Shown: positions 8,201 to 52,888 of the stretch, one piece after another
How positions within the stretch are numbered: position 1 is the first letter of the stretch
How the letters are laid out: each line of letters begins with the position of its first letter
Source: Micromonospora sp. NBC_00421
GTDB lineage: Bacteria > Actinomycetota > Actinomycetes > Mycobacteriales > Micromonosporaceae
NCBI RefSeq assembly: GCF_036017915.1
Contig: NZ_CP107929.1
Span: forward strand, 248,001 to 312,000
Length of the DNA stretch: 64,000 nt
Direction: 5' to 3'
Position numbers and translations under genes: made by a program
Notes under the pieces: model-generated
What the model was told of the DNA's origin: nothing
The model's input: the letters and a program-made list of their open reading frames with translations, nothing else
Databases searched by the model: none

Positions 8201-8254
8201 GATCAAGAGGTTTGCGTCACGAGACCCGCCGCCGATGACGCGAACCTCTTGGTC
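8201..8254. repeat. Palindromic repeat copy A / bidirectional terminator
   Basis: Left arm GATCAAGAGGTTTGCGTCA (8201-8219) pairs with the right arm at 8236-8254 (TGACGCGAACCTCTTGGTC); the two differences form U-G pairs in RNA on one strand. It lies 12 bases after the hydrolase stop and reaches to within two bases of the convergent kinase stop, so it could end transcription from both sides. Two further copies occur at 9317-9379 and 52781-52840. Confidence 0.8.
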
Positions 8255-8255
8255 A

Positions 8256-9203
8256 TCATGCTGTCTCGGGGTGGGTGAGGCGGTGGGCCAGCCAGGGGAG
8301 GAGGGCGTCGGCCTGGGACTGTTGGAAGGGGCGGACGGTGGGGATGCCGGGCGGCGGCGGGCGGCGGGCGCTGTCGGTGAAGAAGCCGGCCAGGCCAGCG
8401 TAGAAGCCGGTCAGGACGGCGGAGTCGACGTCGGCGGTGCGCGGCGACCGGCGTAGCAGCATCTCGGTGTCGTGCCCGCCGTGCAGCCGTACGTTGACCA
8501 GCAACAGCGCGGTGTCCAGCCAGGCGGGGCCTCGACAGGCCCACGGCCAGTCCACCACGGTGACCCTCCCGTCCGGCCCGATCAGCAGGTTGTCGGCGCG
8601 GACGTCGAGATGGCACAGGGTGTCCCCGGTCAGCGCGGCCAGCCCCCGGTCGGCCGCCGCACAGAGTTCGGTCAGGTGCGTGGCTGCCCACGGGTCGAGC
8701 CGGGGTGGTGGGTCGGCGGCGATCCGCCGCCAGCCGGCGAAGTCGTGGGCCAGCCGCTCGGCGGCGGTCGGTACGTCCGGCACCGGGTTCGGAGTGAGCG
8801 TGGCGGCCAGGGTGTCGAGCGTGTGCAGTACCGGGTCGAGTTCGGCAGCTCGCCAGGGCGTGTGCGGGTGCCGGCCGTCGACGTCGGTGAGGACCAGCGC
8901 CACCCACTCGCCGTCGTCGTGGCAACCGAGCAGCCGGGGCGTCGGGGCGGTCCGGGGCAGGGCGGCGGTGTGCCGGGCTTCGGCGCGGTGCATCCGGGGG
9001 CTGTCCGGGTTCAGTGTCGGGCCGACCGCCTTGACGAACGCCCGCCGGCCGCCGGCCGTACTGACCCGGTCTGCGGTACCGGGGGAGTACCCACCGGGTT
9101 GGGAGACCGCCTCGACCACCCGGTCACCGATGATCTGCTCCACCGCCTGCCGGACGGACCAGGGCAACTCCCCCCAGCCAATCCTGCCCCCACCCCCACC
9201 CAT
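8256..9203 (-). CDS. Aminoglycoside phosphotransferase (APH)-family kinase
   Basis: The protein has the APH/choline-kinase fold signature: a nucleotide-binding N lobe (GGRRAFVKAVGP), catalytic loop CHLDVRADNLLIGPDGR with the HxDxxxxN residues, and metal-binding VDWPWA. It phosphorylates a hydroxyl group of a small molecule; the substrate is not predictable and resistance should not be assumed. The start is uncertain: the DNA before conserved RIGWGELPWSVRQAVEQI is a homopurine G tract that translates as poly-Gly, so ATG 9203 is used, though 9230 or 9302 are open in frame. It converges on the hydrolase and is divergent from the pyruvyl transferase gene. Confidence 0.82.
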   Translation of the reverse strand: MGGGGGRIGWGELPWSVRQAVEQIIGDRVVEAVSQPGGYSPGTADRVSTAGGRRAFVKAVGPTLNPDSPRMHRAEARHTAALPRTAPTPRLLGCHDDGEWVALVLTDVDGRHPHTPWRAAELDPVLHTLDTLAATLTPNPVPDVPTAAERLAHDFAGWRRIAADPPPRLDPWAATHLTELCAAADRGLAALTGDTLCHLDVRADNLLIGPDGRVTVVDWPWACRGPAWLDTALLLVNVRLHGGHDTEMLLRRSPRTADVDSAVLTGFYAGLAGFFTDSARRPPPPGIPTVRPFQQSQADALLPWLAHRLTHPETA

Positions 9204-9262
9204 ACCCCCACCCCCGCCCCCACCGTCCATCCCCCCACCATGCGCGGCCCCCCAACACCAAA
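9170..9262. repeat. C-rich tract (G-rich on the APH sense strand)
   Basis: The + strand is almost unbroken C runs (for example TGCCCCCACCCCCACCCA), so the antisense strand, which is the sense strand of the leftward kinase gene, is G-rich with many runs of three or more G. It spans the 5' end of the kinase gene and mirrors the G tract at 9381-9498. Confidence 0.85.
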
Positions 9263-9316
9263 CAACCGAATTACCCCCACACGCCTCACCCGCCCCTCGC
9301 ATCGAGGTGTATCACT

Positions 9317-9379
9317 CGGTGATCAAGAGATTCAGGTCAGGATCTCGACCCGGCGTGACGCAAACCTCTTGATCACCGG
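9317..9379. repeat. Palindromic repeat copy B
   Basis: Left arm CGGTGATCAAGAGATTCAGG... (9317-9339) and right arm TGACGCAAACCTCTTGATCA... (9356-9379) form an imperfect 23-bp dyad. Unlike copy A it lies between divergently transcribed genes, so it is not a simple gene-end terminator. Confidence 0.78.
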
Positions 9380-9380
9380 A

Positions 9381-9498
9381 CTGGGCTGGGGGTGGGGGAG
9401 GGGGAGGGAGGAGGGGAGGGAGGGCGGGGGTGGGGGTGGGGGTGGGCATGGGTTGGGGATGGGGGGGAATGCGGGCGGGACGGTTTGGGGAGGAGCGC
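9381..9498 (+). repeat. G-rich, quadruplex-prone leader tract
   Basis: About 18 runs of three or more G occur in roughly 110 bases (for example GGGTGGGGGAGGGGGAGGG), ending in the GGGGAGGAG that serves as the ribosome-binding site of the next gene. On the mRNA sense strand this can form one or several G-quadruplexes. Confidence 0.85.
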
Positions 9499-9500
9499 GG

Positions 9501-10649
9501 ATGAGGGGTCCTACCGGCTTGACCATCGGTGTGCTCGGCTCGTACGGGGGGCGGAACCTGGGGGACGAGGCGATCCTCACCGGGCTCCTCGCCGACCTAC
9601 GCGAGCAGGAGCCGAACGCCCGGATCATCGTGTTCTCCCGTAATCCAGCACATACCGCGCTGGCCCACCCGGACGTGGAGGCGGTGCCCTGGGAGGGCGT
9701 CAGCCGGGTCGACTCGTCCGAGGTGCTCGCCCAGCTCGACCTGCTCATCCTCGGCGGCGGCGGCATCCTGTACGACAAGGAGGCCCGCCGTTACCTGCGG
9801 GTCGTCCGGGTGGCCCAGGAACGCGGGCTGCCCCTGCTGACGTACGCGGTGGGTGTGGGGCCGCTCAACGACGGGGTGGACACCGGGATGGTCCGGGAGA
9901 CGCTGGCCGGGGCGACCGAGGTGACCGTCCGGGACCAGGAGTCCCGGATGGCGCTGGAGGAGGCCGGGCTGCTCAACCCGATCACCGTCACCGCCGACCC
10001 GGCGTTCCTGCTGGAGCCGGAGGACTTTCCCGCGCGGCTGCTGCGCGAGGAGGGGGTACCGGCCGGCAAGCGCCTGGTCGGTTTGAGCGTCCGCGAGCCG
10101 GGACGGGCCGCCGAGCGGCTCGACGTCGACGGGTACCACCGGTTGCTCGCCCAGATCGGCGACTTCCTGGTCCAACGGATCGACGCGCACGTGCTCTTCG
10201 TCCCGATGGAACGCGACGACATCCGGCACTCGCACGGGGTGCTGTCCCACATGGTCGCCGCCGACCGGGGACGGATCCTGCACGGCGACTATTCGCCCCG
10301 GCAGGTGCTCGGCCTGATGAGACACTTCGACCTGGCGGTCGGCATGCGGCTGCACTTCCTGATCTTCGCGGCTATGGTCGGCACCCCGTTCCTGCCCCTG
10401 CCGTACGCGGGGAAGGTCTTCGACCTGGCCCAGCGGCTCGGCGTGCCGGCGCTGCGCGGGGTGGAACGCGAGGTGGAGGGTCCGCTGTTGGCGGAGGTCG
10501 ACCGGCTCTGGGACGAACGGGAGTCCCGGCGGGAGGCCACCGCCCGGCGGGTCGCCGAGGTGTGTGAACAGGCCCGGGGCACCTCGCAGGTCACCCGGGC
10601 CGTGCTGGACGGCCTGCGGTCCCGCACCCTGGCCCGGATGGCCGCCTGA
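9501..10649 (+). CDS. Polysaccharide pyruvyl transferase family protein
   Basis: This 382-residue protein begins with the family hallmark IGVLGSYGGRNLGDEAILTG and continues with ILGGGGILYD, YAVGVGPL, VRDQESRMALEEAGL and the C-terminal VGMRLHFLIFAAMVGTPFL/LPYAGKV pattern of the pyruvyl transferase (CsaB/WcaK/AmsJ) superfamily. These cytosolic enzymes transfer pyruvate ketals or phosphorylated groups to cell-wall or exopolysaccharide sugars; the acceptor is unknown. The ATG at 9501 is set by GGGGAGGAG six bases upstream. It stands alone: no glycosyltransferase genes are next to it. The 5' leader is the G tract described separately, which could affect translation. Confidence 0.88.
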   Translation: MRGPTGLTIGVLGSYGGRNLGDEAILTGLLADLREQEPNARIIVFSRNPAHTALAHPDVEAVPWEGVSRVDSSEVLAQLDLLILGGGGILYDKEARRYLRVVRVAQERGLPLLTYAVGVGPLNDGVDTGMVRETLAGATEVTVRDQESRMALEEAGLLNPITVTADPAFLLEPEDFPARLLREEGVPAGKRLVGLSVREPGRAAERLDVDGYHRLLAQIGDFLVQRIDAHVLFVPMERDDIRHSHGVLSHMVAADRGRILHGDYSPRQVLGLMRHFDLAVGMRLHFLIFAAMVGTPFLPLPYAGKVFDLAQRLGVPALRGVEREVEGPLLAEVDRLWDERESRREATARRVAEVCEQARGTSQVTRAVLDGLRSRTLARMAA

Positions 10650-10654
10650 CCGAT

Positions 10655-10701
10655 CTGCGCAGGCCGGGTGGCGTCCGCCCACCTGCGCAGGCCGGGTGGC
10701 G
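10655..10701. repeat. Two 19-bp direct repeats just after a stop codon
   Basis: CTGCGCAGGCCGGGTGGCG occurs at 10655-10673 and 10683-10701 (28-bp period), starting five bases beyond the pyruvyl transferase stop. Function unknown. Confidence 0.7.
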
Positions 10702-10784
10702 CTGGCTCACCTGGTGTGTCGCCGCCGACCCCGACCCGCGCGCCCCTGCGGCGCACGCCCGACCGTCCCGGGACGACGGAGTGG

Positions 10785-10982
10785 TCAGACCGCCGGGCCG
10801 CGCCAGCGGTAGCGCCACGTGTCGCCCGCTGACTCCAGTTCGTAGATCTGGGCGTCGACCAGGCCCTGCGGGCCGAGGTGGTGGTGGGTCAGCGGGGGGC
10901 GCTCGTTGCTGTCCAGCTCGACGTCGACCGCCTCGCCGTCAGCCGGGCCGTCCGTCAGGGGAATCCGTACCGTCGAAGCCAT
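10785..10982 (-). CDS. Small conserved-looking hypothetical protein
   Basis: A 65-residue acidic protein (MASTVRIPLTDGPADGEAVD at the start, ending YRWRGPAV). It has no signal peptide, membrane segment or cysteine. Supported as a gene by an ATG start with AGGAT upstream, GC-rich third positions and the lack of a better frame; a short beta-rich fold is likely. Function is not recognised. It converges on the pyruvyl transferase and is divergent from the DinB-like gene. Confidence 0.65.
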   Translation of the reverse strand: MASTVRIPLTDGPADGEAVDVELDSNERPPLTHHHLGPQGLVDAQIYELESAGDTWRYRWRGPAV

Positions 10983-11066
10983 GCGCCCATCCTGCCAAGC
11001 CGGCCGCCGGACCGCAGGGTTTGGCCGGGACAGCGGGTCGCCACCGGATGCGGCTATCGTCCGGTG

Positions 11067-11588
11067 ATGGCGGAGATCCAGATCGACGTGACGCTAGCTC
11101 CGGTGCTCGCCCGCACCGGTGACGAGCGGGCCGTGCTCGACGCGTTCCTCGACTTCCACCGCGCGATCGTGCTGCGCAAGGCGCGGGGGTTGACCGACGC
11201 CGAGGCGACCCGCCGGCTGGTGCCGTCGGCGACCACCCTGGCCGGCCTCCTGCGGCACCTCACCCTGGTCGAGCGGAACTGGTTCCCCTACCTGCTCGAC
11301 CCGGCCCCCGGCGACGTCTTCCCCACCTCCGAGGAGGACGCGGCGGCCAGCTTCGCCCTGGCCGAGGGGGAGACCCTCGACTCGCTCGCCGATGCCTACG
11401 AGCGGGCCTGTGACCGCTCCCGGGAGTTGGCCGCCCGGTTCCCGCTGGACCATGTCGTCCCGCAACCGCAGCTCGGCGAGGTGTCGTTGCGCTGGATCAT
11501 GGTGCACATGATCGAGGAGACCGCCCGGCACGCCGGCCACGCCGACATCCTCCGTGAGCTGACCGACGGCAGCACCGGCCAGCTCTGA
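11067..11588 (+). CDS. DinB-like (DUF664) family protein
   Basis: A 173-residue four-helix-bundle protein of the DinB/YfiT type, with typical elements ERAVLDAFLDFHRAIVLRKARGL, LAGLLRHLTLVERNWF and the C-terminal WIMVHMIEETARHAGHADIL. The three family metal-ligand histidines are plausible at RHLTLVE, HMIEE and HAGHAD. Related proteins are mycothiol- or bacillithiol-dependent S-transferases, so a thiol-transfer or detoxification role is possible but not shown. An in-frame GTG at 11064 directly precedes the chosen ATG. Confidence 0.85.
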   Translation: MAEIQIDVTLAPVLARTGDERAVLDAFLDFHRAIVLRKARGLTDAEATRRLVPSATTLAGLLRHLTLVERNWFPYLLDPAPGDVFPTSEEDAAASFALAEGETLDSLADAYERACDRSRELAARFPLDHVVPQPQLGEVSLRWIMVHMIEETARHAGHADILRELTDGSTGQL

Positions 11589-11750
11589 CCCGCACCCGGG
11601 GCCGTCGCGGTCGTCGGGCCGGAGGCGGCAGGGCCACTCCGCCCGTCCCATCAGGGCGGGCGACGTCAGTCGGGGCGGGCGGCCATGGCGCCGACGGTAA
11701 CCGGTTACCGCCGCCTATCCTGGCCCCCGGGCGTCGACGAGGGGGAAAAC

Positions 11751-14700
11751 GTGCTGGTCGTCCACGGGGCGTGGCTGGTCGGGACCGGGCTGGCGGTCTG
11801 GGCGGAGGATTCCACCCGGCCGACGCAGGTGCCGCGACGGCCCGGTCGGGCCCCCCGCGAGCGCCCCCACCCCTTCGCCGCCGAACCGGCCGCGCTGTCC
11901 GCGCTGCTCGGCGACCACCCGGCCGGCACCGTGCTGCTCACCCTCCCCACCCGGGCCGGTGCGCCGCTGCACTCCCCGGAGCTGGTCCCGGCCACCGTCG
12001 CGGAACCGGTCCGCGGCCCGGTCACCCTCGCCGGCTGGCGAACCCCCACCCTCCGGTACGCCCCGGACGACGCGCTCGACCTGCTGCGTGCCCTCGACGG
12101 GCTCGATGCCGTGGTCGGGGCCGGCCTGCGCCACCTCGCCGAGTTGGCCGGCTTCGCGGTCGACCTGGTGGCCCGGGGCCGGTTGCTGCCCGGCGTGGCC
12201 GATCGCCCGCCGGGGGACGTACCCCGGTCACCGGCCGGTCGGTCGGCGCGTTCCGCCGGGGCGGCGGTCGGGTGGGCGGTGTGGCGGCCCCTGCTCACCG
12301 GCGCGGACGCCGCCTGGGCCCGGTCGCTGGCCCTCGCCCTGCCCCCGGCCGTCCGGGCCGCCGCCGATGCGGCGACCCCCACCTCCCGTTCCCGCCCCGC
12401 CGCAGGCCGGGCGGCCGGGGTGACCAACGGGAAATCGCCCGGTAGCGGTGCGGTCGAGACCCCCGGTTCGCGGCCCGTCTCCGGTGTGGTCGAGGCTGCC
12501 GTGATGCCGCCCGGTCCCGGTGCCGAGGCGGCGGAGGGTCGGTCCGGTCCCGGTGTCGCCGGGGCCGGTGTGCTGGTCGCCGACGTGCTGGACCTGCTCA
12601 CCGATGCCGCCGCCCGACGGGTGCTGGCCGACACAGACCTGGTCAGGGGCGGCCGACGTGACGGGGCGACGGCCGGCTGGCTGGCGGCGCTGACCGGCCC
12701 GCAACGCCGGTTCACCGCCGAACCCACCGCGCTGGCCACCCTCCGTGCCGAGCTGGACGCCTGGCAGCGCGACGCGGTCGGCGGCCCGGTCCGGGCCAGT
12801 TTCCGGCTGGTCGAGCCGGCCGACGACGAGATCGTCGACGCCCTGACCGTGGTGCCGGCCGACCCGTCGACAGTCGTCGGTCAGGGTGGACGGTGGCGGA
12901 TCGAGTTCGGTCTCCAGGCCGCCGACGAACCGGGCCTGCATGTCGCCGCCTGTGACATCTGGCGGACGCCGGAGCGGCTGCCGGCGCTCGCAGGCCGGTG
13001 GGACGACCCGCAGGAGACCCTGCTGGCCGAGCTGGGCCGGGCCGGGCGGCTCTGGCCGGAGCTGGACCAGGCGCTGCGCACCCCCGCCCCGGAGCAGCTC
13101 GAACTGGACGTCGAGGGGGCCCACCGGTTCCTGCGCGACGGTGCTCCGGTGCTGCACGCCGCCGGCTTCGGGGTGCAGTTGCCGTCCTGGTGGCGGCGGC
13201 CGTCGGCCCGGCTCGGCACCCGGTTGCAGGCCCGCAGCCGCACGGCCCCGGGCACCGTCGCCGCCGCCTCCGGCGGGCTCGGGCTGGACGCGCTCGTCGA
13301 CTACCGCTGGGAGGTGGCGCTCGGTGACGAGACGGTCGACGCCGACGAGCTGGCCGCCCTGGCCGCGTTGAAGACGCCCCTGGTGCGGCTGCGCGGCCGG
13401 TGGGTGGAGCTGGACCCGAAGCGGTTGGCCGCCGGGCTGCGGCTGCTGCGCTCCTCCGGTGAGTTGACAGTCGCCGACCTGCTCAAGATGGGGTTGGGCG
13501 GGGCGGACCGGTCGGACGCGCTGCCGGTGCTGGAGGTGACCGCCGACGGACCGCTCGGTGACCTGCTGGCCGGGCAGGCCGAACGGCGGCTCGTGCCACT
13601 GGACCCGCCGTCCGCCTTCAAGGGCACCCTGCGGCCGTACCAGCGGCGTGGCCTGGCCTGGCTGGCCTTCCTCCAGTCGCTGGGGCTCGGCGGGGTGCTC
13701 GCCGACGACATGGGGCTGGGCAAGACGGTGCAGCTGCTCGCCCTGCTCGCCGGGGACCCACCGGACGCCGGGCCGACCCTGCTGGTCTGTCCGATGTCGC
13801 TGGTCGGCAACTGGCAGCGGGAGGCGGCCCGGTTCACCCCCGGGCTGCGCGTGCACGTGCACCACGGCGCGGACCGGGCCCGGGACGCGGAGTTCGAGGC
13901 GGCGGTGCACGCCGCCGACCTGGTACTCACCACCTATTCGGTGGCCGCCCGGGACGCCGTCGCGCTGGCGTCGGTGGGTTGGCACCGGGTGGTGGTCGAC
14001 GAGGCCCAGGCGATCAAGAACGCGGCCACCCGGCAGGCCGAGGCGATCCGGGGGCTGCCCGCCCGGCACCGGGTCGCCGTCACCGGTACGCCTGTGGAGA
14101 ACCGGCTGGCCGACCTCTGGTCGATCATGCAGTTCGCCAATCCCGGCCTGCTCGGCCCGGCGAGCAGCTTCCGGCAGTCGTACGCGGTGCCGATCGAGCG
14201 GCACGGGGACACCGACGCCGCGGCGCGGCTGCGCCGGATCACCGGTCCGTTCGTGCTGCGCCGGCTCAAGACCGACTCCTCGATCATCTCCGACCTGCCG
14301 GAGAAGCTGGAGATGGAGGTGCTCTGCAACCTCACCGCCGAGCAGGCCTCGCTCTACCGGGCGATCGTCGACGAGATGCTGGCGAAGATCGAGTCCAGCG
14401 ACGGGATGGAACGGCGGGGCCTGGTGCTGGCCACCATGACCCGGCTGAAACAGGTCTGCAACCATCCCGCCCAACTGCTGCGCGACGGCTCGCCGCTGGC
14501 CGGCCGGTCCGGCAAGCTGCAACGGTTGGAGGAGATCGTCGACGAGGTGCTCGCGGCCGACGAGAAGGCCCTCCTGTTCACCCAGTACGCCGAGTTCGGC
14601 GCGCTGCTGCGCGGCCACCTGTCGGCCCGCTTCGGCCGGGAGGTGCTCTATCTGCACGGCGGGGTCGGCAAGGCCGACCGGGACGACCTGGTCACCCGGT

Positions 14701-15047
14701 TCCAGTCCCCGGACGGACCGGCCCTGTTCGTGCTCTCGCTCAAGGCCGGCGGGACCGGGCTCACCCTGACCGCCGCCAACCACGTGGTGCACGTGGACAG
14801 GTGGTGGAACCCGGCGGTGGAGGACCAGGCCACCGACCGGGCGTTCCGGATCGGCCAGCGGCGGCGGGTGCAGGTCCGCAAGTTCGTCTGCGCCGGCACC
14901 GTCGAGGAGAAGGTGGCCGCGATGATCGCCGACAAGCGGGGCCTGGCCGCGTCCGTGGTGGGTAGTGGCGAACAGTGGGTCACCGAGCTGTCCACCGGGC
15001 AGCTGCGGGAGCTGTTCGCGCTGGACGCCGGGGCGGTGGTCGAATGA
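11751..15047 (+). CDS. SNF2-family helicase/ATPase (HelZ type)
   Basis: The 1,098-residue protein is a bacterial SNF2/Rad54-like ATPase. An N-terminal half of uncertain fold contains an SNF2-associated (DUF3670-like) region around residues 400-600. The motor follows: Walker A GVLADDMGLGKTVQLLALL, motif II VVVDEAQAIKN, motif III TGTPVENRL, and the C-terminal helicase lobe (TQYAEFGALL, LSLKAGGTGLTLTAANHV, RAFRIGQRRRVQVRKFV). Such proteins translocate on double-stranded DNA. A stretch of about 70 residues near residue 240-290 is low complexity (Gly/Pro/Ala). GTG 11751 follows AGGGGGAAA; an upstream ATG at 11685 is in frame. It overlaps the SWIM gene by four bases (ATGA), indicating translational coupling. 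Confidence 0.93.
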   Translation: MLVVHGAWLVGTGLAVWAEDSTRPTQVPRRPGRAPRERPHPFAAEPAALSALLGDHPAGTVLLTLPTRAGAPLHSPELVPATVAEPVRGPVTLAGWRTPTLRYAPDDALDLLRALDGLDAVVGAGLRHLAELAGFAVDLVARGRLLPGVADRPPGDVPRSPAGRSARSAGAAVGWAVWRPLLTGADAAWARSLALALPPAVRAAADAATPTSRSRPAAGRAAGVTNGKSPGSGAVETPGSRPVSGVVEAAVMPPGPGAEAAEGRSGPGVAGAGVLVADVLDLLTDAAARRVLADTDLVRGGRRDGATAGWLAALTGPQRRFTAEPTALATLRAELDAWQRDAVGGPVRASFRLVEPADDEIVDALTVVPADPSTVVGQGGRWRIEFGLQAADEPGLHVAACDIWRTPERLPALAGRWDDPQETLLAELGRAGRLWPELDQALRTPAPEQLELDVEGAHRFLRDGAPVLHAAGFGVQLPSWWRRPSARLGTRLQARSRTAPGTVAAASGGLGLDALVDYRWEVALGDETVDADELAALAALKTPLVRLRGRWVELDPKRLAAGLRLLRSSGELTVADLLKMGLGGADRSDALPVLEVTADGPLGDLLAGQAERRLVPLDPPSAFKGTLRPYQRRGLAWLAFLQSLGLGGVLADDMGLGKTVQLLALLAGDPPDAGPTLLVCPMSLVGNWQREAARFTPGLRVHVHHGADRARDAEFEAAVHAADLVLTTYSVAARDAVALASVGWHRVVVDEAQAIKNAATRQAEAIRGLPARHRVAVTGTPVENRLADLWSIMQFANPGLLGPASSFRQSYAVPIERHGDTDAAARLRRITGPFVLRRLKTDSSIISDLPEKLEMEVLCNLTAEQASLYRAIVDEMLAKIESSDGMERRGLVLATMTRLKQVCNHPAQLLRDGSPLAGRSGKLQRLEEIVDEVLAADEKALLFTQYAEFGALLRGHLSARFGREVLYLHGGVGKADRDDLVTRFQSPDGPALFVLSLKAGGTGLTLTAANHVVHVDRWWNPAVEDQATDRAFRIGQRRRVQVRKFVCAGTVEEKVAAMIADKRGLAASVVGSGEQWVTELSTGQLRELFALDAGAVVE

Positions 15048-16027: not shown

Positions 16028-16064
16028 CCGGTCTCGGTCCGGCCGGTATCGGGTGGGCCGAGTG

Positions 16065-16328
16065 TCAGCGCCAGCGCCAGCGGTGCCGGAAGTGCCACAT
16101 CAGGCCGGTGTTGGCCGCCAGGAGCACGACGCACATCGCGCCGGCCGATCGTCCGGCCAGGACGGTCATCGCGGGCAGCGACGCCCACAGGATGACGGTC
16201 AGCAACATCAGCCAGCGTCCGCGTCGGGCCCGGACCCGATGGTCGAGTCTCGCGAAGAACTTCGGGTCGCTCTCCCGGAGCTGCCGGGTGATCTGTTCGA
16301 ATCTGCGCTGATCCTCTTTGCTGAGCAT
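16065..16328 (-). CDS. DUF3040 small membrane protein
   Basis: An 87-residue protein with an amphipathic N-terminal helix (MLSKEDQRRFEQITRQLRES), a basic stretch (RVRARRGR) and two closely spaced membrane helices (WLMLLTVILWASLPAMTVLA and GAMCVVLLAANTGLMWHF), ending in a basic tail. This layout is typical of DUF3040, a common actinobacterial membrane family of unknown function. It converges on the SWIM gene and is divergent from the DUF1800 operon. Confidence 0.82.
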   Translation of the reverse strand: MLSKEDQRRFEQITRQLRESDPKFFARLDHRVRARRGRWLMLLTVILWASLPAMTVLAGRSAGAMCVVLLAANTGLMWHFRHRWRWR

Positions 16329-31150: not shown

Positions 31151-31210
31151 GTCCCCGCCCCTGCCGCTCCGTCCCCGCCCCTGCCGCTCCGTCCCCGCCC
31201 CTGCCGCTCC
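31151..31210. repeat. 20-bp C-rich tandem repeat, three exact copies
   Basis: GTCCCCGCCCCTGCCGCTCC is repeated three times in tandem, with degenerate copies on both sides (31141-31150 and 31211-31240). It begins 20 bases after the symporter stop. Confidence 0.9.
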
Positions 31211-31497
31211 GTCCCCGCCTGCCGCTCTGTCCCCGCCTGCCGCCCTCCGCTACCCGTCCTTCCGCCATCCCTTCCTCGATGCGGAATCGGTAGGCGGGTG
31301 GCCGATGGGGTGGCCGGTGGGGTGTGCCGGCGAGGCCGGCTCGACGCGGAGCGGGTGGACCGGGCGGGGTGGACCGGACCGGGTGGACCAGGTCGACCGG
31401 GTGGACTGGGCGGACCGGGCGGACTGGGCGGGCACGCTACGGACCACGTCGGAGCCAGCCCGTGGAGGCGTTGTGGACAATGGTGCTGGCCGATGGG

Positions 31498-31551
31498 CTG
31501 GTCGCCCTGGTCGCCCTGGTCGCCCTGGTCGCCCTGGTCGCCCTGGTCGCC
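31498..31551. repeat. 9-bp tandem repeat, six copies
   Basis: CTGGTCGCC is repeated six times exactly. Being a multiple of three it could encode LVALVA, but no surrounding frame supports translation. Confidence 0.9.
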
Positions 31552-31687
31552 GGTGGGGCCGGCTTTGACGGGCGCGCCACGGACCACGTCGGATCCAGCC
31601 GGTGGGGGCGTCGCAGATGGTGTGCACCGGCCCCTGGGCCCTCGGTCCTGGGCCTCGGTCGGTGGTGTACCTGTACTACTTCGCGCC

Positions 31688-31760
31688 CTGTAGAGCTGAT
31701 GACGTTAGCGATTCACGATCTTCCAGGCCGGCTGAATCGCTAACGTCTTCAGCTCTACAG
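31688..31760. repeat. 28-bp inverted repeat (long hairpin)
   Basis: The left arm 31688-31715 (CTGTAGAGCTGATGACGTTA...) and right arm 31733-31760 are complementary with one mismatch around a 17-base loop. It is lower in GC than its surroundings, more than 500 bases from either neighbouring gene end, and could be a mobile palindromic element or an RNA hairpin. Confidence 0.88.
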
Positions 31761-31809
31761 CATCCGAATGTGATTACCCACCCTCCCGTCTCTATCGAGT
31801 AGGTCCGGG

Positions 31810-31862
31810 CTTCAGCACGCCTTCAGCACGCCTTCAGCACGCCTTCAGCACGCCTTCAGCAC
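31810..31862. repeat. 11-bp tandem repeat, four full copies plus a partial
   Basis: CTTCAGCACGC is repeated in exact tandem from 31810, the fifth copy being cut short at 31862. Confidence 0.9.
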
Positions 31863-32237
31863 CGCCTCCATCCGGTCCACCTGCTGGCTCGCCAGTTTGG
31901 TCGCCTTGCCTAACTTCCGGCAGCCGGAAGCCGGCAGCGTTCGGGGGTGAGACGCCGGCATCCGGGTGAGCGTGGTCCTCGCCACCTTCGGTGTGGCACC
32001 AGTCGCCCTGGGGGTTGCCCTGGTTCGCGCTGAGGGCTGCCATAACGGGACGGGACGTGGCTGCCCTGCCTGCCCCGCGGCCAGCAGTCGCGAGGTCGGG
32101 CGGCGGGCGGCAGGCGGTGCAGCGCAGCGGGCGGCGGGGTCGGGTGGCGGGCGGCAGGCGGTGCAGGGCAGCGGGGCAGAGGGGCCGGCAGGGCAGCGGG
32201 GCAGCGGGGCCGGCAGGGCGGTGGGGCGGGCAGGGCG

Positions 32238-35047: not shown

Positions 35048-35479
<432 letters not shown>

Positions 35480-45484: not shown

Positions 45485-45643
45485 GAGCGAACCCTAGCGG
45501 CTTTCGCCGATCCCCGGTCAACCCGTTTCGGCCTGCCAACCCGGACACCTGTCCGCCGGGCCCGGGTGCGGCAGTTCCGACAGCGGTCCGGTGGGCGGTG
45601 GCGGCTCCTCCGGGGAGGAGGCACCGCCACCGCGCCACCCGAC

Positions 45644-46489
45644 TCAGAACGTGTGCTCGGTGGCGGGGAAGTCGCCGCCGCGTACCTCGTCGGCGAACCG
45701 GCGGGTCGCCTCGGTCAGCGCCCCGGCCAGGTCGGCGTAGCGCTTGACGAACCGGGGGGCCTTTCCGGTGCGCAGCCCTGCCATGTCCTGCCAGACCAGC
45801 ACCTGGGCGTCGGTGTCCGGGCCCGCGCCGATGCCGACGGTGGGGATCGTCAGTTCGGCGGTGACCCGCTTGGCCACCTCGCCCGGCACCATCTCCAGCA
45901 CCACCGCGAACGCCCCCGCCCCGGCCACCGCCCGCGCGTCGGCGAGCACCTCGTCGGCGGTGTCGCCGCGCCCCTGCACCCGGTAGCCGCCCAGGGTGTG
46001 CTCGCTCTGCGGGGTGAACCCGATGTGCGCCATCACCGGGATGCCCGCACCGGTGATCGCCGCGATCTGGTCGGCGCAGCGCCGGCCGCCCTCCAGCTTC
46101 ACCGCGTGGCAGCCGCCCTCCTTCATGAACCGCACCGCCGTGCGCAGCGCCTGGGTCGGCCCCTCCTCGTACGAGCCGAACGGCAGGTCGCCGACGACCA
46201 GGGTGTGCCGGGTCGCCCGGACCACGGCGCGGACCAGCGGCAACAACTCGTCGACTGTCACCGGCAGGGTGGTCTCGTAACCGAACACGTTGTTCGCCGC
46301 CGAGTCGCCGACCAGCAGCGCCGGGATCCCCGCCTGGTCGAAGATCGCGGCGGTGTACTGGTCGTACGAGGTGAGCATCGCCCACCGGTCGCCGCGCTCC
46401 TTGGCGGCGATCAGGTCACGGGTGCGGACCCGGCGGGTGGCCGGCCCGCCGTACAGGGCGGTCACCTCGGTCGGGGTGGACTCCACCAT
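45644..46489 (-). CDS. panB: 3-methyl-2-oxobutanoate hydroxymethyltransferase
   Basis: PanB makes ketopantoate from 2-oxoisovalerate and methylene-THF, the first step of pantothenate and coenzyme A synthesis. The 281-residue protein has canonical motifs: [88 protein letters not shown] and [20 protein letters not shown]. The ATG at 46489 has AAGGAGA upstream and starts conserved sequence. It is followed by nadE on the same strand, 160 bases away. Confidence 0.95.
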
Positions 46490-46651
46490 GGCTGTCTCCT
46501 TTCCTCGAGGCCGCTGTCGCGGTCCCCGGGCTCCGTCGCGATCGTCGCACCACACGACCTGTCGACGGCAGGGAACAGTGCAGGATGTCACTCCGTCGGG
46601 ACGGCACCCGGCCGCCCCGGAGGTCGGGCGCCGCCCCGACGGGTCGGGTGC

Positions 46652-48412
46652 TCAGCCGTCCTCGCGCCACCGGTTGGTGATCGGCAGGCGGCGGTCCCGG
46701 CCGAACGCCTTCATCGAGATCTTGGTGCCGGGCGCGGACTGCCGACGCTTGTACTCGGCGGTGTCCACCAGCCGCAGCACCTTGTCGACCACCGCCGGGT
46801 CGTGACCGGACTCCACCAGACCGGCCCGGCCCAGGTCACCGTCGACGTAGCCGATCAGGATCGGGTCCAGCACGTCGTAGTCGGGCAGGTTGTCGCTGTC
46901 GAGCTGGCCGGGGCTCAACTCGGCCGACGGGGGCTTGCCGATGGAGTTCTCCGGGATCGGCGGGGTCTCACCCCGCCGGGCCGCATCGGCGTTGCGCCAC
47001 TTCGCCAGCCGCCAGACCAGCGTCTTCCAGACGTCCTTGACCGGGTTGAAGCCGCCGACCGAGTCGCCGTAGAGGGTCGAGTAGCCGACCGCCAGCTCGC
47101 TCTTGTTGCCGGTGGTGAGGACCAGATGGCCCTCCTGGTTGGACAGTGCCATCAGGATCACCCCGCGGACCCGGGCCTGGAGGTTCTCCACCGCCACCCC
47201 GGACAGCGAGATGTTCGCCAGGAAGGTGTCCACCATCGGCTGGATCGGCTCGACCCGGTAGTCCAGGCCGGTCCGCTTGGCGAGGTCCTCGGCGTCGGCC
47301 CGGGAGTGCTCCGAGGAGTGCTGGCTGGGCAGCGAGACGCCGACCACCCGCTGCGGCCCGAGCGCGTCGACCGCCAGCACGGCCACCACCGCCGAGTCGA
47401 TCCCGCCGGACAGGCCCAGCACCACCGAGGGGAACCGGTTCTTGTCGACGTAGTCGCGCAGGCCCAGCACCAGCGCGTGCCACACCTCGGCCTCGTCGGC
47501 GACCGGCGCCAGCAGACCGCCGTCGGCCGCCGGCCCGGTCGGTGCCGCCGGAATCCCCTCGACGGTACGACGTACCACCCGCATCCCGTCGGCGAGGTCC
47601 TCGGTGTCGGCGGCGTGCGGGCCCGCCCCGGCCAGCTCCACGTCGTGCACCAGCAGGTGCTCGACGAACTGCGGCGCGCGGGTGAGCAGGTCCCCGTCGG
47701 CCGTGACGATCATCGAGTCGCCCTCGAAGACCAGCTCGTCCTGGCCGCCGACCATGTTGACGTACGCGATCGGGGCACCGGCCTCGACGGCCCGGCGGCG
47801 CACCAGCGGCAACCGGACGTCGTCCTTGTTCAACTCGTACGGCGAGCCGTTGATGTTGACCACCAGGCCGACACCCGCCTGCCGGGCCACCGCGAACGGG
47901 CCGCCGGCCTGCCACAGGTCCTCGCAGATGGTAAGCGCCACGTCCACCCCGCCGACCCGGACCACGGTCAGGGTGTCCCCGGGCACGAAGTAGCGGTCCT
48001 CGTCGAAGACGCCGTAGTTGGGCAGGTGGTGCTTGAAGTAGTGGGCCACCACCTCGCCCCGGTGCAGCAGCGCGGCGGCGTTGCGGGCCCCCCGACCCGG
48101 CCGGGCGTCCCCGCTGACCTGGGGCGGACCGTCGGCGTCCAGGTAGCCGACCACGGCCGGCAGGTCGCCGAGGCCGTCGGCGGCCAGGTCGGCGGCGAGC
48201 CGGCGCAGCGCGGCCTGCGAGGCGGCGACGAAGGAACGGCGGAAGACCAGGTCCTCGACCGGGTAGCCGGTGAGCACCATCTCCGGGAACGCGACGAGCT
48301 GGGCACCGGCGTCGGCGGCCCGACGGGTCCAGGCGCGGATCAGCTCGGCGTTGCCGGCCGTGTCGCCGACGGTCGGGTTGACCTGGCACAGGGCCAGACG
48401 CAGGGTGGGCAT
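46652..48412 (-). CDS. nadE: Glutamine-dependent NAD+ synthetase
   Basis: The 586-residue enzyme amidates nicotinic acid adenine dinucleotide to NAD+. The N-terminal nitrilase-like glutaminase domain has the Glu/Lys/Cys triad regions (VAFPEMVLTGYP, YFKHHLPNYGVFDE, ALTICEDLWQAGGP). The C-terminal synthetase domain begins near residue 275 with the PP-loop motif VVLGLSGGIDSAVVAVLAVD and contains TTGNKSELAVGYSTLYGDSVGGFNP. ATG 48412 starts conserved MPTLRLALCQVNPTVGD. Divergent from glnA2. Confidence 0.95.
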   Translation of the reverse strand: MPTLRLALCQVNPTVGDTAGNAELIRAWTRRAADAGAQLVAFPEMVLTGYPVEDLVFRRSFVAASQAALRRLAADLAADGLGDLPAVVGYLDADGPPQVSGDARPGRGARNAAALLHRGEVVAHYFKHHLPNYGVFDEDRYFVPGDTLTVVRVGGVDVALTICEDLWQAGGPFAVARQAGVGLVVNINGSPYELNKDDVRLPLVRRRAVEAGAPIAYVNMVGGQDELVFEGDSMIVTADGDLLTRAPQFVEHLLVHDVELAGAGPHAADTEDLADGMRVVRRTVEGIPAAPTGPAADGGLLAPVADEAEVWHALVLGLRDYVDKNRFPSVVLGLSGGIDSAVVAVLAVDALGPQRVVGVSLPSQHSSEHSRADAEDLAKRTGLDYRVEPIQPMVDTFLANISLSGVAVENLQARVRGVILMALSNQEGHLVLTTGNKSELAVGYSTLYGDSVGGFNPVKDVWKTLVWRLAKWRNADAARRGETPPIPENSIGKPPSAELSPGQLDSDNLPDYDVLDPILIGYVDGDLGRAGLVESGHDPAVVDKVLRLVDTAEYKRRQSAPGTKISMKAFGRDRRLPITNRWREDG

Positions 48413-48659
48413 GCCCTCATCTTGCCCCAGCGGCTGCCGGTCAATCAGGCCGCTCCGACGAGACGACGGCCACCCTTTTCCGGTCCCCGGCCGGCCGGGT
48501 GCGGGTGGCGGGGCCGTCCGCTGATCCGTCGGTCGGGACACCGCAGGACGAGCGGCAGCAGGTCGCGTAACGTCTGCTTAACCAGGCCGGGGAAGACTGG
48601 GCGGTCAGGACGGATCGGCCGCCCGGTGCCGGACGTACGTCGCGCGAGGGGTTGGGGAA

Positions 48660-50009
48660 GTGGACCGTCAGCAGGAGTTCGTCCTCCGTACGCTGGAAGA
48701 GCGGGACATCCGTTTCGTCCGGCTGTGGTTCACCGACGTGCTGGGCACGCTCAAGAGCGTCTCGGTCGCTCCGGCGGAGCTGGAGGCCGCCTTCGAGGAG
48801 GGCATCGGGTTCGACGGCTCGGCCATCGAGGGCTTCGCCCGGGTCTTCGAGTCCGACATGGTCGCCATGCCGGACCCGACCACCTTCCAGGTCTTCCCGT
48901 TCGAGGGTGGAGTCAGCGGCGAGAGTGCCCGGATGTTCTGCGACATCCTGCTGCCCGACGGCGGCCCGTCCTGGGCCGACCCGCGGCACGTGCTGCGCCG
49001 GATGCTGTCCAAGGCGGCCGAGAAGGGCTTCACCTTCTACACCCACCCCGAGATCGAGTTCTTCCTGCTGGAGAACGGCCCGCAGGACGGCTCGGTGCCG
49101 ACCGCCGTGGACACCGGCGGTTACTTCGAGCACACCACGCACGCGGTGGCGCGGGACTTCCGCCGCCAGGCCGTGCTGGCGCTGGAGCGGATCGGCATCT
49201 CGGTCGAGTTCAGCCACCACGAGGTCGCCCCCGGCCAGCAGGAGATCGACCTGCGGTACGCCGACGCGCTGACCACCGCCGACAACATCATGACCTTCCG
49301 GCACGTGGTCAAGGAGGTGGCGCTCTCCACGGGGGTGCAGGCCAGCTTCATGCCGAAGCCCTTCACCGACCAGCCGGGCAGCGGCATGCACACCCACCTG
49401 TCGCTGTTCGAGGGGGAGCGCAACGCGTTCCACGACTCCGGCGACCCGATGAAGCTGTCGAAGGTGGCCAAGTCGTTCATCGCCGGTCTGCTGATGCACG
49501 CCCGGGAATACACCGCGGTCACCAACCAGTGGGTCAACTCGTACAAGCGGCTGTTCCCGCAGGCGTTGCCGGACCGGATCACCGAGAGCCCGGCGTACGT
49601 CTGCTGGGGGCACCTGAACCGGTCCGCGCTGGTCCGCGTCCCCGCGTACGGCAAGCCGAACTCGGCCCGGGTGGAGGTCCGCTCGCTGGACTCGGCGACC
49701 AACCCCTACCTGGCGTTCGCGGTGATGCTCGGCGCCGGCCTGAAGGGCATCGAGGAGGGCTACGAGCTGCCGCCCGGCGCGGAGGACGACGTCTGGTCGC
49801 TGACCAGCGCCGAGCGCCGCGCGATGGGCTACGAGGCGCTGCCGGAGAACCTGTCCGAGGCGATCGACGTGATGGCCGGCTCGGAACTGGTCGCCGAGGT
49901 GCTCGGCGAGCACGTCTTCGACTTCTTCCTGCGCAACAAGCGGGCCGAGTGGGAGCAGTACCGCCGCGAGGTCACCCCGTACGAGCGGCAGCGTTACCTG
50001 TCGCTGTAA
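48660..50009 (+). CDS. glnA: Glutamine synthetase type I, GlnA2-like
   Basis: The 449-residue protein has the complete GS core: FTDVLGTLKSVSV, GFDGSAIEGFARV, HPEIEFFLLENG, HHEVAPGQQEIDL, FMPKPFTDQPGSGMHTHLSL and KPNSARVEVRSLDSATNPYL. It is closest in style to M. tuberculosis GlnA2. Where the adenylylation site of GlnA1 has NLYDLP, this protein reads DDVWSL, so the target tyrosine is replaced and control by GlnE is unlikely. It starts with GTG at 48660, divergent from nadE; glnE is 4.7 kb downstream. Confidence 0.94.
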   Translation: MDRQQEFVLRTLEERDIRFVRLWFTDVLGTLKSVSVAPAELEAAFEEGIGFDGSAIEGFARVFESDMVAMPDPTTFQVFPFEGGVSGESARMFCDILLPDGGPSWADPRHVLRRMLSKAAEKGFTFYTHPEIEFFLLENGPQDGSVPTAVDTGGYFEHTTHAVARDFRRQAVLALERIGISVEFSHHEVAPGQQEIDLRYADALTTADNIMTFRHVVKEVALSTGVQASFMPKPFTDQPGSGMHTHLSLFEGERNAFHDSGDPMKLSKVAKSFIAGLLMHAREYTAVTNQWVNSYKRLFPQALPDRITESPAYVCWGHLNRSALVRVPAYGKPNSARVEVRSLDSATNPYLAFAVMLGAGLKGIEEGYELPPGAEDDVWSLTSAERRAMGYEALPENLSEAIDVMAGSELVAEVLGEHVFDFFLRNKRAEWEQYRREVTPYERQRYLSL

Positions 50010-50219
50010 CCCGCCGCACCCGCCGCCCCGGGGCCGGGGCCGTTCGGACCCGGGGCCCCGGCGGCTCGGATCCGGCGAGGCCGGGCCGTCGGGGCCCCGG
50101 ATCTGCCGATGGTCCGGGCTCCGGCCTGGCCGGGGGGTATCGGGGGTGGCGCGGTGCCGCTATCGTCTCGATCACCGTGCCGGCAGCCGTGCCGGGCGCA
50201 GGAGGTCGGGAGGCCGTCG

Positions 50220-50645
50220 GTGCTGGAGGATCTGCTCACCGGAGCATGGCAGAGCGTCGTGTTCGGTGTCGTCGGGGTGGCGCTGATGGCGGCCGGCTTC
50301 GTGCTGGTCGACCTGCTCACCCCGGGCAAGCTGCGCGAGCTGATCTGGGTACGCCGCAACGGCAACGCCGGGCTGCTGCTGGCCGCCAACCAGCTCGGTG
50401 TCGCCGGCATCGTGTTCACCGCGATCGTGACCAGCTACGACGACTTCGCCAAGGGGCTCGCCTCGACGGTGGTCTTCGGGTTGATCGGGCTGGCCGTCAT
50501 GGCGCTGGCCTTCGGCGTCCTGGACCTGCTCACCCCGGGCCGGCTCGGCGAGGTGATCTGCGCGGACGAGCCGCACCCGGCGGCCCGGGTCAGCGCCGCC
50601 ACCCACTTCGGCGCGGCCCTGATCGTCTGCGCCTGCATCGCCTGA
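50220..50645 (+). CDS. DUF350 membrane protein
   Basis: A 141-residue membrane protein with four helices arranged as an internal duplication: VGVALMAAGFVLVDLLTPGKLRELIW and IGLAVMALAFGVLDLLTPGRLGEVIC. DUF350 proteins (UPF0719-like) are conserved, of unknown function, often linked to spermidine synthase-like or membrane stress genes. The GTG is preceded by GGAGG at a distance of about 13 bases with an AGG nearer. It follows glnA2 in the same direction after a GC-rich hairpin-prone spacer. Confidence 0.82.
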   Translation: MLEDLLTGAWQSVVFGVVGVALMAAGFVLVDLLTPGKLRELIWVRRNGNAGLLLAANQLGVAGIVFTAIVTSYDDFAKGLASTVVFGLIGLAVMALAFGVLDLLTPGRLGEVICADEPHPAARVSAATHFGAALIVCACIA

Positions 50646-50795
50646 CCCTGCGGCCACACGCCTGCACCGCCTGAATCCGGCCCGTGGCCTGCGCCGTCCC
50701 GCTGGGGGCGGTCCGGGTGACGGGCCGGCTGCGTCCGCGTCCGGCCCCACCTGTCGACCGGCCGGTTCGTCGTACCCCCGTCGTAGTGTGCGGGG

Positions 50796-51488
50796 GTGAA
50801 CCGGACGGATCGTCTCTATGCCCTGGTGGAGGAGCTGCGGGCGGTGTCACCCCGGCCGCGCAGCGCCCGCTGGCTGGCCGCCCGCTTCGAGGTGAGCACC
50901 CGCACCGTCGAACGGGACATCATCGCCCTCCAGGGCACCGGCGTGCCGATCTGGGCCGAGCCCGGCCGCACCGGCGGTTACGTGGTGGACCGGTCGCACA
51001 CCCTGCCACCGGTCAACCTGACCGCCGCCGAGGCGGTGGCGATGGCGGTGGCCCTGCACGGGCTCGCCGGCACCCCGTTCGCCGTGGCGGGCGGCACCGC
51101 GCTGCGCAAACTGCTGGCGGTGCTGCCGGCCGCCGACGCCGCCGACGCACGCCTGCTCGCCGGCCGGGTGCTGCTGGTCGGCACCGGGCCGACCACCTCC
51201 GTCCCGGCTGTCGTCGCCGACGCGGTCTCCGCCCGCCGGGTGCTCCGCCTGCGGTACGCCGACCGCTGCGGTGTGGTCTCGTCGCGTGAGGTCGAGCCGT
51301 TGGGCTACCTGGGCAACAGCCGGCACTGGTACCTGCTGGCCTGGTGCCGGCTCCGCGACGGGCTGCGCTGCTTCCGTACCGACCGGATCTGCGGGGTGGA
51401 GGCGTTGCCGGAGCGGGTGACCCGGGAGTTCTCCCCGACCGAGCTGGATGTCCCGCCCGAGCGGGTGCGCCGACTGACCCTGGTGTGA
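50796..51488 (+). CDS. WYL-domain HTH transcriptional regulator (YafY type)
   Basis: The 230-residue protein has an HTH_11 winged helix (RSARWLAARFEVSTRTVERDI, ALQGTGVPIWAEPGRTGGYVVD) and a WYL domain (RVLRLRYADRCG, REVEPLGYLGNSRHWYLLAWCRLRDGLRCFRTDRI) that in related proteins binds nucleic acid or small ligands. The GTG start is supported by conserved NRTDRLYALVEELR. It precedes a VOC-family gene in the same direction, which is a plausible target. Confidence 0.88.
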   Translation: MNRTDRLYALVEELRAVSPRPRSARWLAARFEVSTRTVERDIIALQGTGVPIWAEPGRTGGYVVDRSHTLPPVNLTAAEAVAMAVALHGLAGTPFAVAGGTALRKLLAVLPAADAADARLLAGRVLLVGTGPTTSVPAVVADAVSARRVLRLRYADRCGVVSSREVEPLGYLGNSRHWYLLAWCRLRDGLRCFRTDRICGVEALPERVTREFSPTELDVPPERVRRLTLV

Positions 51489-51712
51489 GCAGCCGACCCG
51501 GGTGCGAGGAGTGAGTCCCGGGGCGGATCGCCCGGCGTCGTCATGCCGACCGTCAGGAGCGACACCCGTCGGCCTGGTGCCCGGCCGGAGTCCGGTGCCG
51601 ACGACGGGCCGGCTCTTTCCGTAAACACCGACAGGACGCTGTCGCGGACGCCCGGGAGGCTGGCTCCCGAACCCACCGGCCGCCCGGCCGGCAGGGGAAC
51701 AGGAGGCGACGC

Positions 51713-52087
51713 GTGACCAGCACACCCATCACCTGGTTCGAGATCGGCACCGACCGGCCGGACGAGGTGCAAGGCTTCTACGCGGAGTTGTTCGGCTGGA
51801 CCTTCGTCGAGGAGGGTACGGCCGAGGGTGGTTCCTACCGGACGACCGGCGCGGGACAGCCGGCGGGCATCGGCGGAGGCATCCGGGCCATCGCCGAGGG
51901 CGCCCCCGGCTACGCGATCCTCTACGCCGAGGTGACCGACGTGACGCAGACGTGCCGCCGGGCCGAGACGGCGGGCGGCACGGTGCTGACGCCGCCCCGG
52001 ACCACGCCGGGCGGGTTGACCCTCGCCCTGCTGCGTGACCCGTCGGGCAACCACCTCGGTGTCTTCTCCCCGGCGGGCACCGCCTGA
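51713..52087 (+). CDS. VOC (glyoxalase/bleomycin-resistance fold) protein
   Basis: A 124-residue VOC-superfamily protein: TWFEIGTDRPDEVQGFYAELFGWTFVEE, EGAPGYAILYAEVTDVTQTCRRAETAGG, GLTLALLRDPSGNHLGVFS. VOC metalloenzymes or binding proteins act on many small molecules; no substrate can be named. GTG 51713 follows AGGAGGCG. It lies 225 bases downstream of the WYL regulator and ends at a very strong hairpin. Confidence 0.85.
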   Translation: MTSTPITWFEIGTDRPDEVQGFYAELFGWTFVEEGTAEGGSYRTTGAGQPAGIGGGIRAIAEGAPGYAILYAEVTDVTQTCRRAETAGGTVLTPPRTTPGGLTLALLRDPSGNHLGVFSPAGTA

Positions 52088-52093
52088 TGCAAG

Positions 52094-52142
52094 GGGCCGA
52101 AGTTGCGGTGTCCCGGTGCATCGGACACCGCAACTTCGGCCC
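52094..52142. terminator. Perfect 20-bp hairpin between convergent genes
   Basis: GGGCCGAAGTTGCGGTGTCC (52094-52113) and its exact complement (52123-52142) enclose a 9-base loop, seven bases after the VOC stop. It would terminate rightward transcription and, being symmetric, leftward transcription too. Confidence 0.88.
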
Positions 52143-52154
52143 ATCTGCGTTGAT

Positions 52155-52184
52155 CTTCGGCCCGCCGGGTCGGGCGGGCCGAAG
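52155..52184. terminator. Second hairpin sharing the CTTCGGCCC motif
   Basis: CTTCGGCCCGCC (52155-52166) pairs exactly with GGCGGGCCGAAG (52173-52184). It begins 13 bases after the larger hairpin and ends six bases before the stop of the leftward secreted-protein gene. Confidence 0.8.
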
Positions 52185-52189
52185 GTGGG

Positions 52190-52666
52190 TCACCTGCCGG
52201 GCGTACCCGCCGGGCCGTCGTGGTGGCCTCGGCCACCCGGACCCGGGAAGACGCCGGCCTCGACGGCCTTGGTGATCGCGTCGGCCTGCTCCTGGGTGAG
52301 CTTGCCGTCCTTGACCGCCTGGGCCAGCCGCTCGGTCAGCTTCGCCTGCCGGTCCTCGGCCGACGGGCGCTCCGGCCGGTCACCCTTGACCTGGTCCTTG
52401 TGCTGCGCGCGCACCTTCTCCAGGGCGGCGGTCACCTTGTCGGTGTCCACGCCCAGCTCCGTGGCCAGCGCCTCGGCGAACTCGTTCTGCCGGTCGGCGC
52501 GCTGCTGCTGCCGGTCGGTGCCCTGGTCGGCCGCACTGCTGACGCTCGGCGTCGGGGTGGAGCCACTCTCGGCGAAGGCCACCGTGGGAGCGGCGATCCC
52601 CACCCCGAGCACACCGGCGGCGGCAAGGCCGACCAGCACCTGCTTCTTCGACATGGTGCGGGACAT
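52190..52666 (-). CDS. Small secreted protein with charged helical body
   Basis: A 158-residue protein with a Sec signal (KKQVLVGLAAAGVLGVGIAA...AFA), then a charged helical region (FAEALATELGVDTDKVTAAL, LTERLAQAVKDGKLTQEQADAI) resembling secreted proteins with repeated Lx(2)G(K/V)LTQEQAD helices, and a His/Gly-rich tail. No cysteines are present. ATG 52666 has GGAGG at a good distance. Function is unknown; metal or surface binding through the GGRGHHDG tail is conceivable only. Confidence 0.82.
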   Translation of the reverse strand: MSRTMSKKQVLVGLAAAGVLGVGIAAPTVAFAESGSTPTPSVSSAADQGTDRQQQRADRQNEFAEALATELGVDTDKVTAALEKVRAQHKDQVKGDRPERPSAEDRQAKLTERLAQAVKDGKLTQEQADAITKAVEAGVFPGPGGRGHHDGPAGTPGR

Positions 52667-52780
52667 CGTTCCTCCAGTACGTCGGTGGTGATGCGTTGAC
52701 GTCACCGACAGTGACCGCCGAACCTGAGAACCCCCCGTCCCGACCCTGTCCCCAAGCTGAAAATCCGCCCCGCCGGCCCC

Positions 52781-52840
52781 GGTGATCAAGAGGTTTCGGC
52801 CAGGAATGCGCTTTCCATCCCCGCAAACCTCTTGATCACC
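52781..52840. repeat. Palindromic repeat copy C
   Basis: GGTGATCAAGAGGTTT (52781-52796) and AAACCTCTTGATCACC (52825-52840) are exact complements around a 28-base loop. It lies between two leftward genes, upstream of the secreted-protein gene. Same core as copies A (8201-8254) and B (9317-9379). Confidence 0.88.
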
Positions 52841-52888
52841 CGGGCGGGACGGGGCGGGGCGGGGGCGCGGGGGGGTGGGGGTGGGGGG
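52841..52888 (+). repeat. G-rich tract beside palindrome copy C
   Basis: Directly right of the palindrome the + strand is almost only G runs (GGGGCGGGGCGGGGGCGCGG, then GGGGTGGGGGTGGGG) up to the carboxypeptidase stop codon. The sequence left of the palindrome is C-rich, as at copies A and B. Confidence 0.85.

Follow-up and report, generated by a model that had tools for sequence, protein, structure and literature searches.

Dispersed palindromes of Micromonospora lie between mirror-image, strand-skewed flanks

Dispersed palindromes are common in bacteria. Here we describe a family of them in Micromonospora sp. NBC_00421 and its relatives whose flanks carry a mirror-image strand skew: read outward from the palindrome, 347 of the 350 flanks that were scored have the G-rich sign. 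Such a compositional footprint, ~250 bp long on each side, would be a new property. A DNA process centred on the dyad best fits the symmetry of the skew, and the reading that we prefer, at a probability of roughly 0.38, is that these are protein-bound palindromes at gene ends and that the skew was left by dyad-centred breakage with biased outward repair. At title and abstract level no account of the family appeared among the papers listed from the open PMC literature, a body that takes in neither subscription papers nor preprints, and among the matches listed for the core letters all were on unrelated subjects.

Three dyads in the window

The window is the whole stretch of 64,000 nucleotides that was analyzed, positions 248001-312000 of the 7.23-Mb genome. 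The initial annotation had noticed in it three dyads with the same core, and this was borne out, although the first spans given for B and C carried a few extra outer bases. The dyads and their flanks are as follows, with GC skew measured over 100 bp to the left and right of each dyad:

8201-8254, unstranded, dyad A: 28-nt gap between left arm 8201-8213, exact, and right arm 8242-8254, with 2 mismatches
8000-8200 (limit approximate), unstranded, A left flank, C-rich: skew -0.69 (nearest 100 bp), enters hydrolase gene end
8255-8450 (limit approximate), unstranded, A right flank, G-rich: skew +0.48 (nearest 100 bp), enters kinase gene 3' end
9321-9374, unstranded, dyad B: 28-nt gap between left arm 9321-9333, with 2 mismatches, and right arm 9362-9374, exact
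9160-9320 (limit approximate), unstranded, B left flank, C-rich: skew -0.58, takes in poly-Gly N-terminal codons of the kinase frame
9375-9500, unstranded, B right flank, G-rich: skew +0.85, ends at pyruvyl transferase start
52784-52837, unstranded, dyad C: 28-nt gap between left arm 52784-52796, exact, and right arm 52825-52837, exact
52680-52783, unstranded, C left flank, weakly C-rich: skew -0.22
52838-52960 (limit approximate), unstranded, C right flank, G-rich: skew +0.67, enters carboxypeptidase 3' end

Nine arm matches with at most 3 mismatches occur in the window against 2.4 expected, a number reached by 0 of 100 shuffles, and six of the nine are the arms of A, B and C. The gene contexts had been described correctly. 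Dyad A lies between the convergent genes of an alpha/beta hydrolase and an APH-like kinase, with the hydrolase stop 11 bp away on one side and the kinase stop 1 bp away on the other; dyad B lies between the divergent genes of the APH-like kinase and a polysaccharide pyruvyl transferase; dyad C lies between two co-directional minus-strand genes, 51 bp past the LD-carboxypeptidase stop. The plus strand is C-rich to the left and G-rich to the right of each dyad, as had been claimed, and the skew does enter coding ends, at the hydrolase end, the poly-Gly N-terminus of the kinase and the carboxypeptidase 3' end. The window also contains a tRNA (5994-6065) and the class A RNase P RNA (35056-35475).

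Architecture and distribution of the family

The core is not confined to these three sites. The exact pattern of two 13-bp arms has 51 copies in the whole genome, a reversed control pattern has 0, and a looser pattern has 71. The unit is 54-55 bp long and consists of two conserved arms of ~19-22 bp, with the sequence CCGGTGATCAAGAGGTTTRCGTCA and its mirror, flanking a variable centre of 16-17 nt; the consensus is CCCCGGTGATCAAGAGGTTTRCGTCA-N16-TGACGYAAACCTCTTGATCACCGGGG. Among 72 dyads with up to 4 arm mismatches, a set drawn from 1.25 of the 7.23 Mb and mostly from around known exact copies, the gap between the 13-bp arms is 28 nt in 68 and 29 nt in 4. Nearly all of the information content of 68 dyads of this genome is in the arms and very little in the N16 centre, and at some sites the centres of orthologous copies are related.

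Exact dyads are present in 96 of 160 Micromonospora genomes, with 0 to 60 copies per genome. A superfamily consensus, GATCAWGARGTTNNNGKCA and its mirror, is found in 112 of 350 genomes of the host's taxonomic family (3 of 44 genera), and among 296 genomes of the class a looser form of it occurs in four, three of them Micromonospora; the dyad family thus occurs almost only in this genus. At the site of dyad C, 30 loci inspected by eye comprise 4 with the present dyad, 10 with a dyad of sister arms (GATCATG...) and the same architecture, 2 with other palindromes and 14 with none. Five sister-arm dyads with flanks have the same skew (10 of 10 flanks).

Other dispersed palindromes were also seen. 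At window positions 60308-60432 this genome has a palindrome of the GTAGTGGCC family, where the relatives G086 and G060 have one present dyad and G155 has three; the ~1.06-kb stretch 31158-32223 contains tandem repeats and a GAGCTGATGACGT palindrome, and G086, G060 and G155 have two present dyads there. Further families in stretches of this genome and of G086 are GTAGTGGCCTC, GAGCTGATGACGT, GATCATGGAGTTGTGGTGG and CTTTGCTCTGCCGCC. The GATCATGGAGTTGTGGTGG palindrome is 81 bp long with near-identical copies, unskewed in this genome and skewed in G086.

Mirror-image skew of the flanks

Merging neighbouring dyads gave 57 sites with 114 flanks in this genome. Read outward, the GC skew lies between 0.59 and 0.64 over the stretch 20-80 bp, has dropped to 0.31 by 120-140 bp and is near 0 past 240 bp, with G rising to 0.66 and C and A falling to 0.14 and 0.08. 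The sign expected from the initial annotation, which had proposed a repeat family with a common C-to-G switch, is carried by 113 of the 114 flanks. In records of other Micromonospora, 124 distinct dyads supplied 236 flanks, those shorter than 150 bp being left out, and 234 of the 236 carry it as well. Neither outcome that the initial annotation had named as refuting it, a core without enrichment or copies without a common skew change, was seen. Of the 114 flanks, 102 have a G-quadruplex motif on the strand that reads outward and 0 on the one that reads inward, against 105 of 4000 random stretches. The flanks are also rich in tandem arrays (72 of 114, against 74 of 708 control flanks).

Several simpler origins of the skew were rejected. 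It is not a general property of gene ends, since the difference is 0.04-0.05 for 359 dyad-free gaps and 1.10 for dyads, nor of any hairpin, since 262 other inverted repeats in the fetched DNA of this genome, a class that still holds some copies of other dispersed palindrome families, average 0.04. It is not common to REP-type repeats: the mean over 19 pattern-located REP clusters of E. coli K-12 is -0.13. An extension of the palindrome into the flanks fails as well, since the two flanks of a given site are no more alike than flanks taken from different sites.

A 400-kb stretch of G086, picked by position, has 22 C-to-G switches of at least 0.75. Of these, 14 are near at least one present-family arm, 6 coincide with dispersed palindromes of other kinds and 2 with plain hairpins; each of its 21 opposite switches lies within 440 bp of a C-to-G switch. 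The 300 kb scanned in G060 yield 15 C-to-G switches, nine with present-family arms and one more with a single weak arm match; among the switches inspected or aligned, four are without any palindrome.

The arms as possible half-sites

Neighbouring dyads are spaced in steps of ~10 bp. The outer gaps are 27-29 bp (27 doublets), 38-40 bp (9) or 49 bp (6) in 42 of the 44 doublets listed, and 26 and 32 bp in the other two; there are 45 doublets in all, counted by hand in six genomes and some of them related by common descent. When like spacers are grouped, 17 gaps below 60 bp are left (18, 28, 29 nine times, 38, 39, 40, 49, 50 and 50), whereas the longer gaps of 76, 80 and 88 bp are not all in phase. 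The common 29-bp gap drives the phase statistic, so that the weight rests on the rarer gap classes. Of 13 cases of extra arms, 12 have a repeat distance of 22 or 30-32 bp.

Arm position 14 is paired in 47% of 68 dyads of this genome, against 45% expected for independent arms. These two observations, the spacing and the chance-level pairing, make the arms look like putative protein half-sites that are read as duplex DNA. Some pairing persists, however, at position 15 in this genome (71 against 58%) and at positions 14 (81 against 68%) and 15 (88 against 75%) in other species, which weakens the duplex reading, and the arms can fold as strong hairpins too.

Evolution of sites and flanks

In the region compared, 13 sites of this genome were examined, of which nine could be aligned to G086 and eight of these nine keep a dyad. 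The number of dyads per site varies (copy A has two in G086 and one in the others, copy B three in G155 and one in the others), centres are often wholly different between relatives, flanks gain and lose tandem repeats, and dyad families replace each other at given sites. The dyad of the weakest-flank site, 179028, is absent in G086. Three further weak-flank sites, whose dyad each of the four relatives searched retains, speak against the idea that a weak flank marks a young copy, and flank strength does not simply reflect age. At one site G060 has skewed flanks (0.84) without the dyad that G086 carries there, which may be a loss of the dyad or flanks that arose first. Where sites differ, the flanks fail to align, and none of the comparisons showed a clean empty site next to a target duplication; solo arms, which could bound an autonomous element, were looked for by eye among 100 of 202 matches listed.

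At third codon positions near dyads, C>G changes have a rate of 0.159 (7 of 44) against 0.093 far from them, and G>C changes of 0.061 (16 of 261) against 0.082, which suggests a small and uncertain substitution bias toward G. The change rate of neutral sites in the near flank (0.201, against 0.182 at far third positions) gives no sign of selection on single flank bases. Point-mutation bias as the sole cause was rejected, since the present substitution spectrum predicts an equilibrium skew of 0.11-0.41 against about 0.70 observed and an unclassified substitution run within 100 bp has 82 losses of G against 28 gains.

Gene neighbourhood and a possible role at gene ends

Genes were called by a simple home-made rule for all counts of context and side. 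By this rule, which mislabels the truly divergent copy B and calls the convergent copy A co-directional, 21 of the 57 sites are convergent, 32 co-directional and 4 divergent, whereas the 576 background gaps divide into 136, 302 and 138 of these classes. At least one gene ends at 53 of the 57 sites and at 80 of 84 classified sites in other Micromonospora, so an end-of-gene role is possible; the median distance past the gene is 74 nt in this genome and 37 nt in the other species. A role in ending transcription may keep the dyads at gene ends.

The main rival explanation, a serious possibility if well short of an even chance, is that the sites are two-way terminators or insulators, in which ~200 nt of C-rich, G- and U-poor incoming RNA precede a stable hairpin, both directions being selected, including against antisense transcription. 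The positions just past genes and the avoidance of divergent gaps speak for it. All three dyads of the window can form stable hairpins, which fold better than shuffles (z -4.7 for A, -2.6 for B and -6.4 for C), and the strand incoming at 20-60 bp has C 0.66 and G 0.14, the C-rich, G-poor composition of Rho-type termination. Passages of PMC8269248 describe U-lacking stem-loop ends and bidirectional ends in Streptomyces.

Against termination stands the absence of the U-run that follows the hairpin in canonical intrinsic terminators (T is 0.07 in the first 20 bp outward), and a scan for intrinsic terminators with loops of up to 8 nt found 0. The skew is moreover equally strong on both sides of genes. 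Flank profiles are alike beside gene 3' ends (73) and 5' ends (37) at 55 of the 57 sites, copies B and 2415476, called inside a gene, being dropped, and in other species 114 flanks at 3' ends and 54 at 5' ends agree, a count that leaves out dyads close to the ends of loci, 10 that the rule placed within genes and 3 remote from any gene. Four divergent sites elsewhere average 1.00 against 0.77-0.79. Other hairpins and convergent gaps are without skew, near-flank sites are not conserved, and the phased spacing suggests duplex DNA. The initial annotation held that a simple terminator role does not explain the set: the equal skew at 3' and 5' sides agrees with this, yet the sites do sit at gene 3' ends.

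In coding ends the skew is strongest at third codon positions, and in genes pointing at the dyad it is 0.51 near and 0.07 far. With dnaA, at 5.83 Mb, as the origin, no fork asymmetry was found (approach minus exit side -0.030, standard error 0.030, n=57); when the origin was instead placed by assumption, the figure was almost identical, a coincidence that was checked.

Proposed breakage and repair centred on the dyad

A mechanism that would fit these data is that a putative protein complex reads the arms as double-stranded half-sites, that the bound or extruded palindrome is nicked or broken again and again, and that repair synthesis running outward, with slippage, yields an outgoing strand in which G is plentiful and C and A are scarce. 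Support for the repair reading comes from the skew being symmetric about the dyad and equal on gene sides and fork sides, and from the phased gaps, the chance-level pairing of position 14, the tandem arrays and the C>G excess near dyads. It is weakened by the low equilibrium skew and the net loss of G, by the dyad-less G060 flanks, which also fit flanks coming first, and by the terminator-like position of most sites at gene 3' ends. Biased repair of the flanks, which had been suggested at the outset, is possible and draws weak support from the substitutions, but the skew that they predict falls short of the one observed.

Strand-asymmetric mutation around break hotspots elsewhere is a comparable case. 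Excerpts of PMC4245961 and PMC6265447 describe palindromes as break hotspots and SbcCD as cleaving hairpins or DNA near protein blocks. The fuller proposal, that a putative Micromonospora protein on phased palindromes makes or invites the breaks and that the flanks, as a scar of strand-biased repair, record where they occurred, is doubtful as it stands. If the flanks are a repair scar, chromosome break sites could be read from sequence; if they are selected, a genus-wide two-way transcription boundary would be revealed.

Other explanations

Another hypothesis, rather unlikely in our judgement, is that the dyads are sites of a chromosome-organising or boundary protein and that the flanks are selected as DNA structure, such as G-quadruplexes of the outward strand. 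The phased half-sites and the outward G-quadruplex motifs would suit it, as would the distribution of exact copies, of which only 2 of 51 are less than 0.6 Mb away from dnaA (P 0.006, post hoc), but flanks that change fast without site conservation and exact copy numbers that vary so widely among species argue against it.

It is also improbable that the dyads are REPIN-like or MITE-like non-autonomous mobile elements which prefer gene ends that were already skewed. Inverted repeats, a fixed-length variable centre, many copies and the replacement of one family by another at a site are what such elements would show, and the layout matches that given for REPINs in parts of PMC3116915. However, the Y1 (RAYT-type) transposase, PF01797, has 0 matches in this genome in a search that finds it in 5 of 14 control genomes, eight of the nine aligned sites are common to G086, dyad-free gaps are not pre-skewed, E. 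coli REPs are without skewed flanks, and a clean empty site was not seen. An outward start of transcription or replication with R-loops, as the initial annotation had also suggested, is very improbable: the C-to-G sign is the one expected at a bidirectional start, but divergent gaps are avoided and a scan for sigma-70-like promoters, the one type that it covers, found none in window positions 7900-9800.

Comparison with known systems

In phased multi-site operators, such as resolvase res sites and iterons, half-site spacing varies by whole helical turns. The dyads resemble them in half-sites repeated at such spacing and differ in being dispersed over the chromosome at gene ends, as candidate sites of a putative protein.

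With bacterial terminators, as passages of PMC8269248 present them, the dyads share a stable hairpin soon after stops, C-rich incoming RNA and a frequent position between convergent genes. Unlike terminators, they lack a U-run, have equal skew at gene 5' and divergent sites, have phased arms and form one sequence family genome-wide.

The closest layout is that of REP sequences and REPINs: inverted conserved ends, a fixed-length variable centre, an extragenic position and many copies are all found in the dyads. The portions of PMC3116915 that describe REPINs and REP-BIMEs report two inverted arms at a fixed distance, a less conserved centre and tandem groups, and the dyads likewise have fixed-distance arms, many extragenic copies and higher-order tandem groups. 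They differ in their ~10-bp phased arms and in the absence of the Y1 transposase from this genome, for which reason we do not file them as REPINs, and they differ from the REPs of E. coli in the mirrored, skewed flanks that accompany them.
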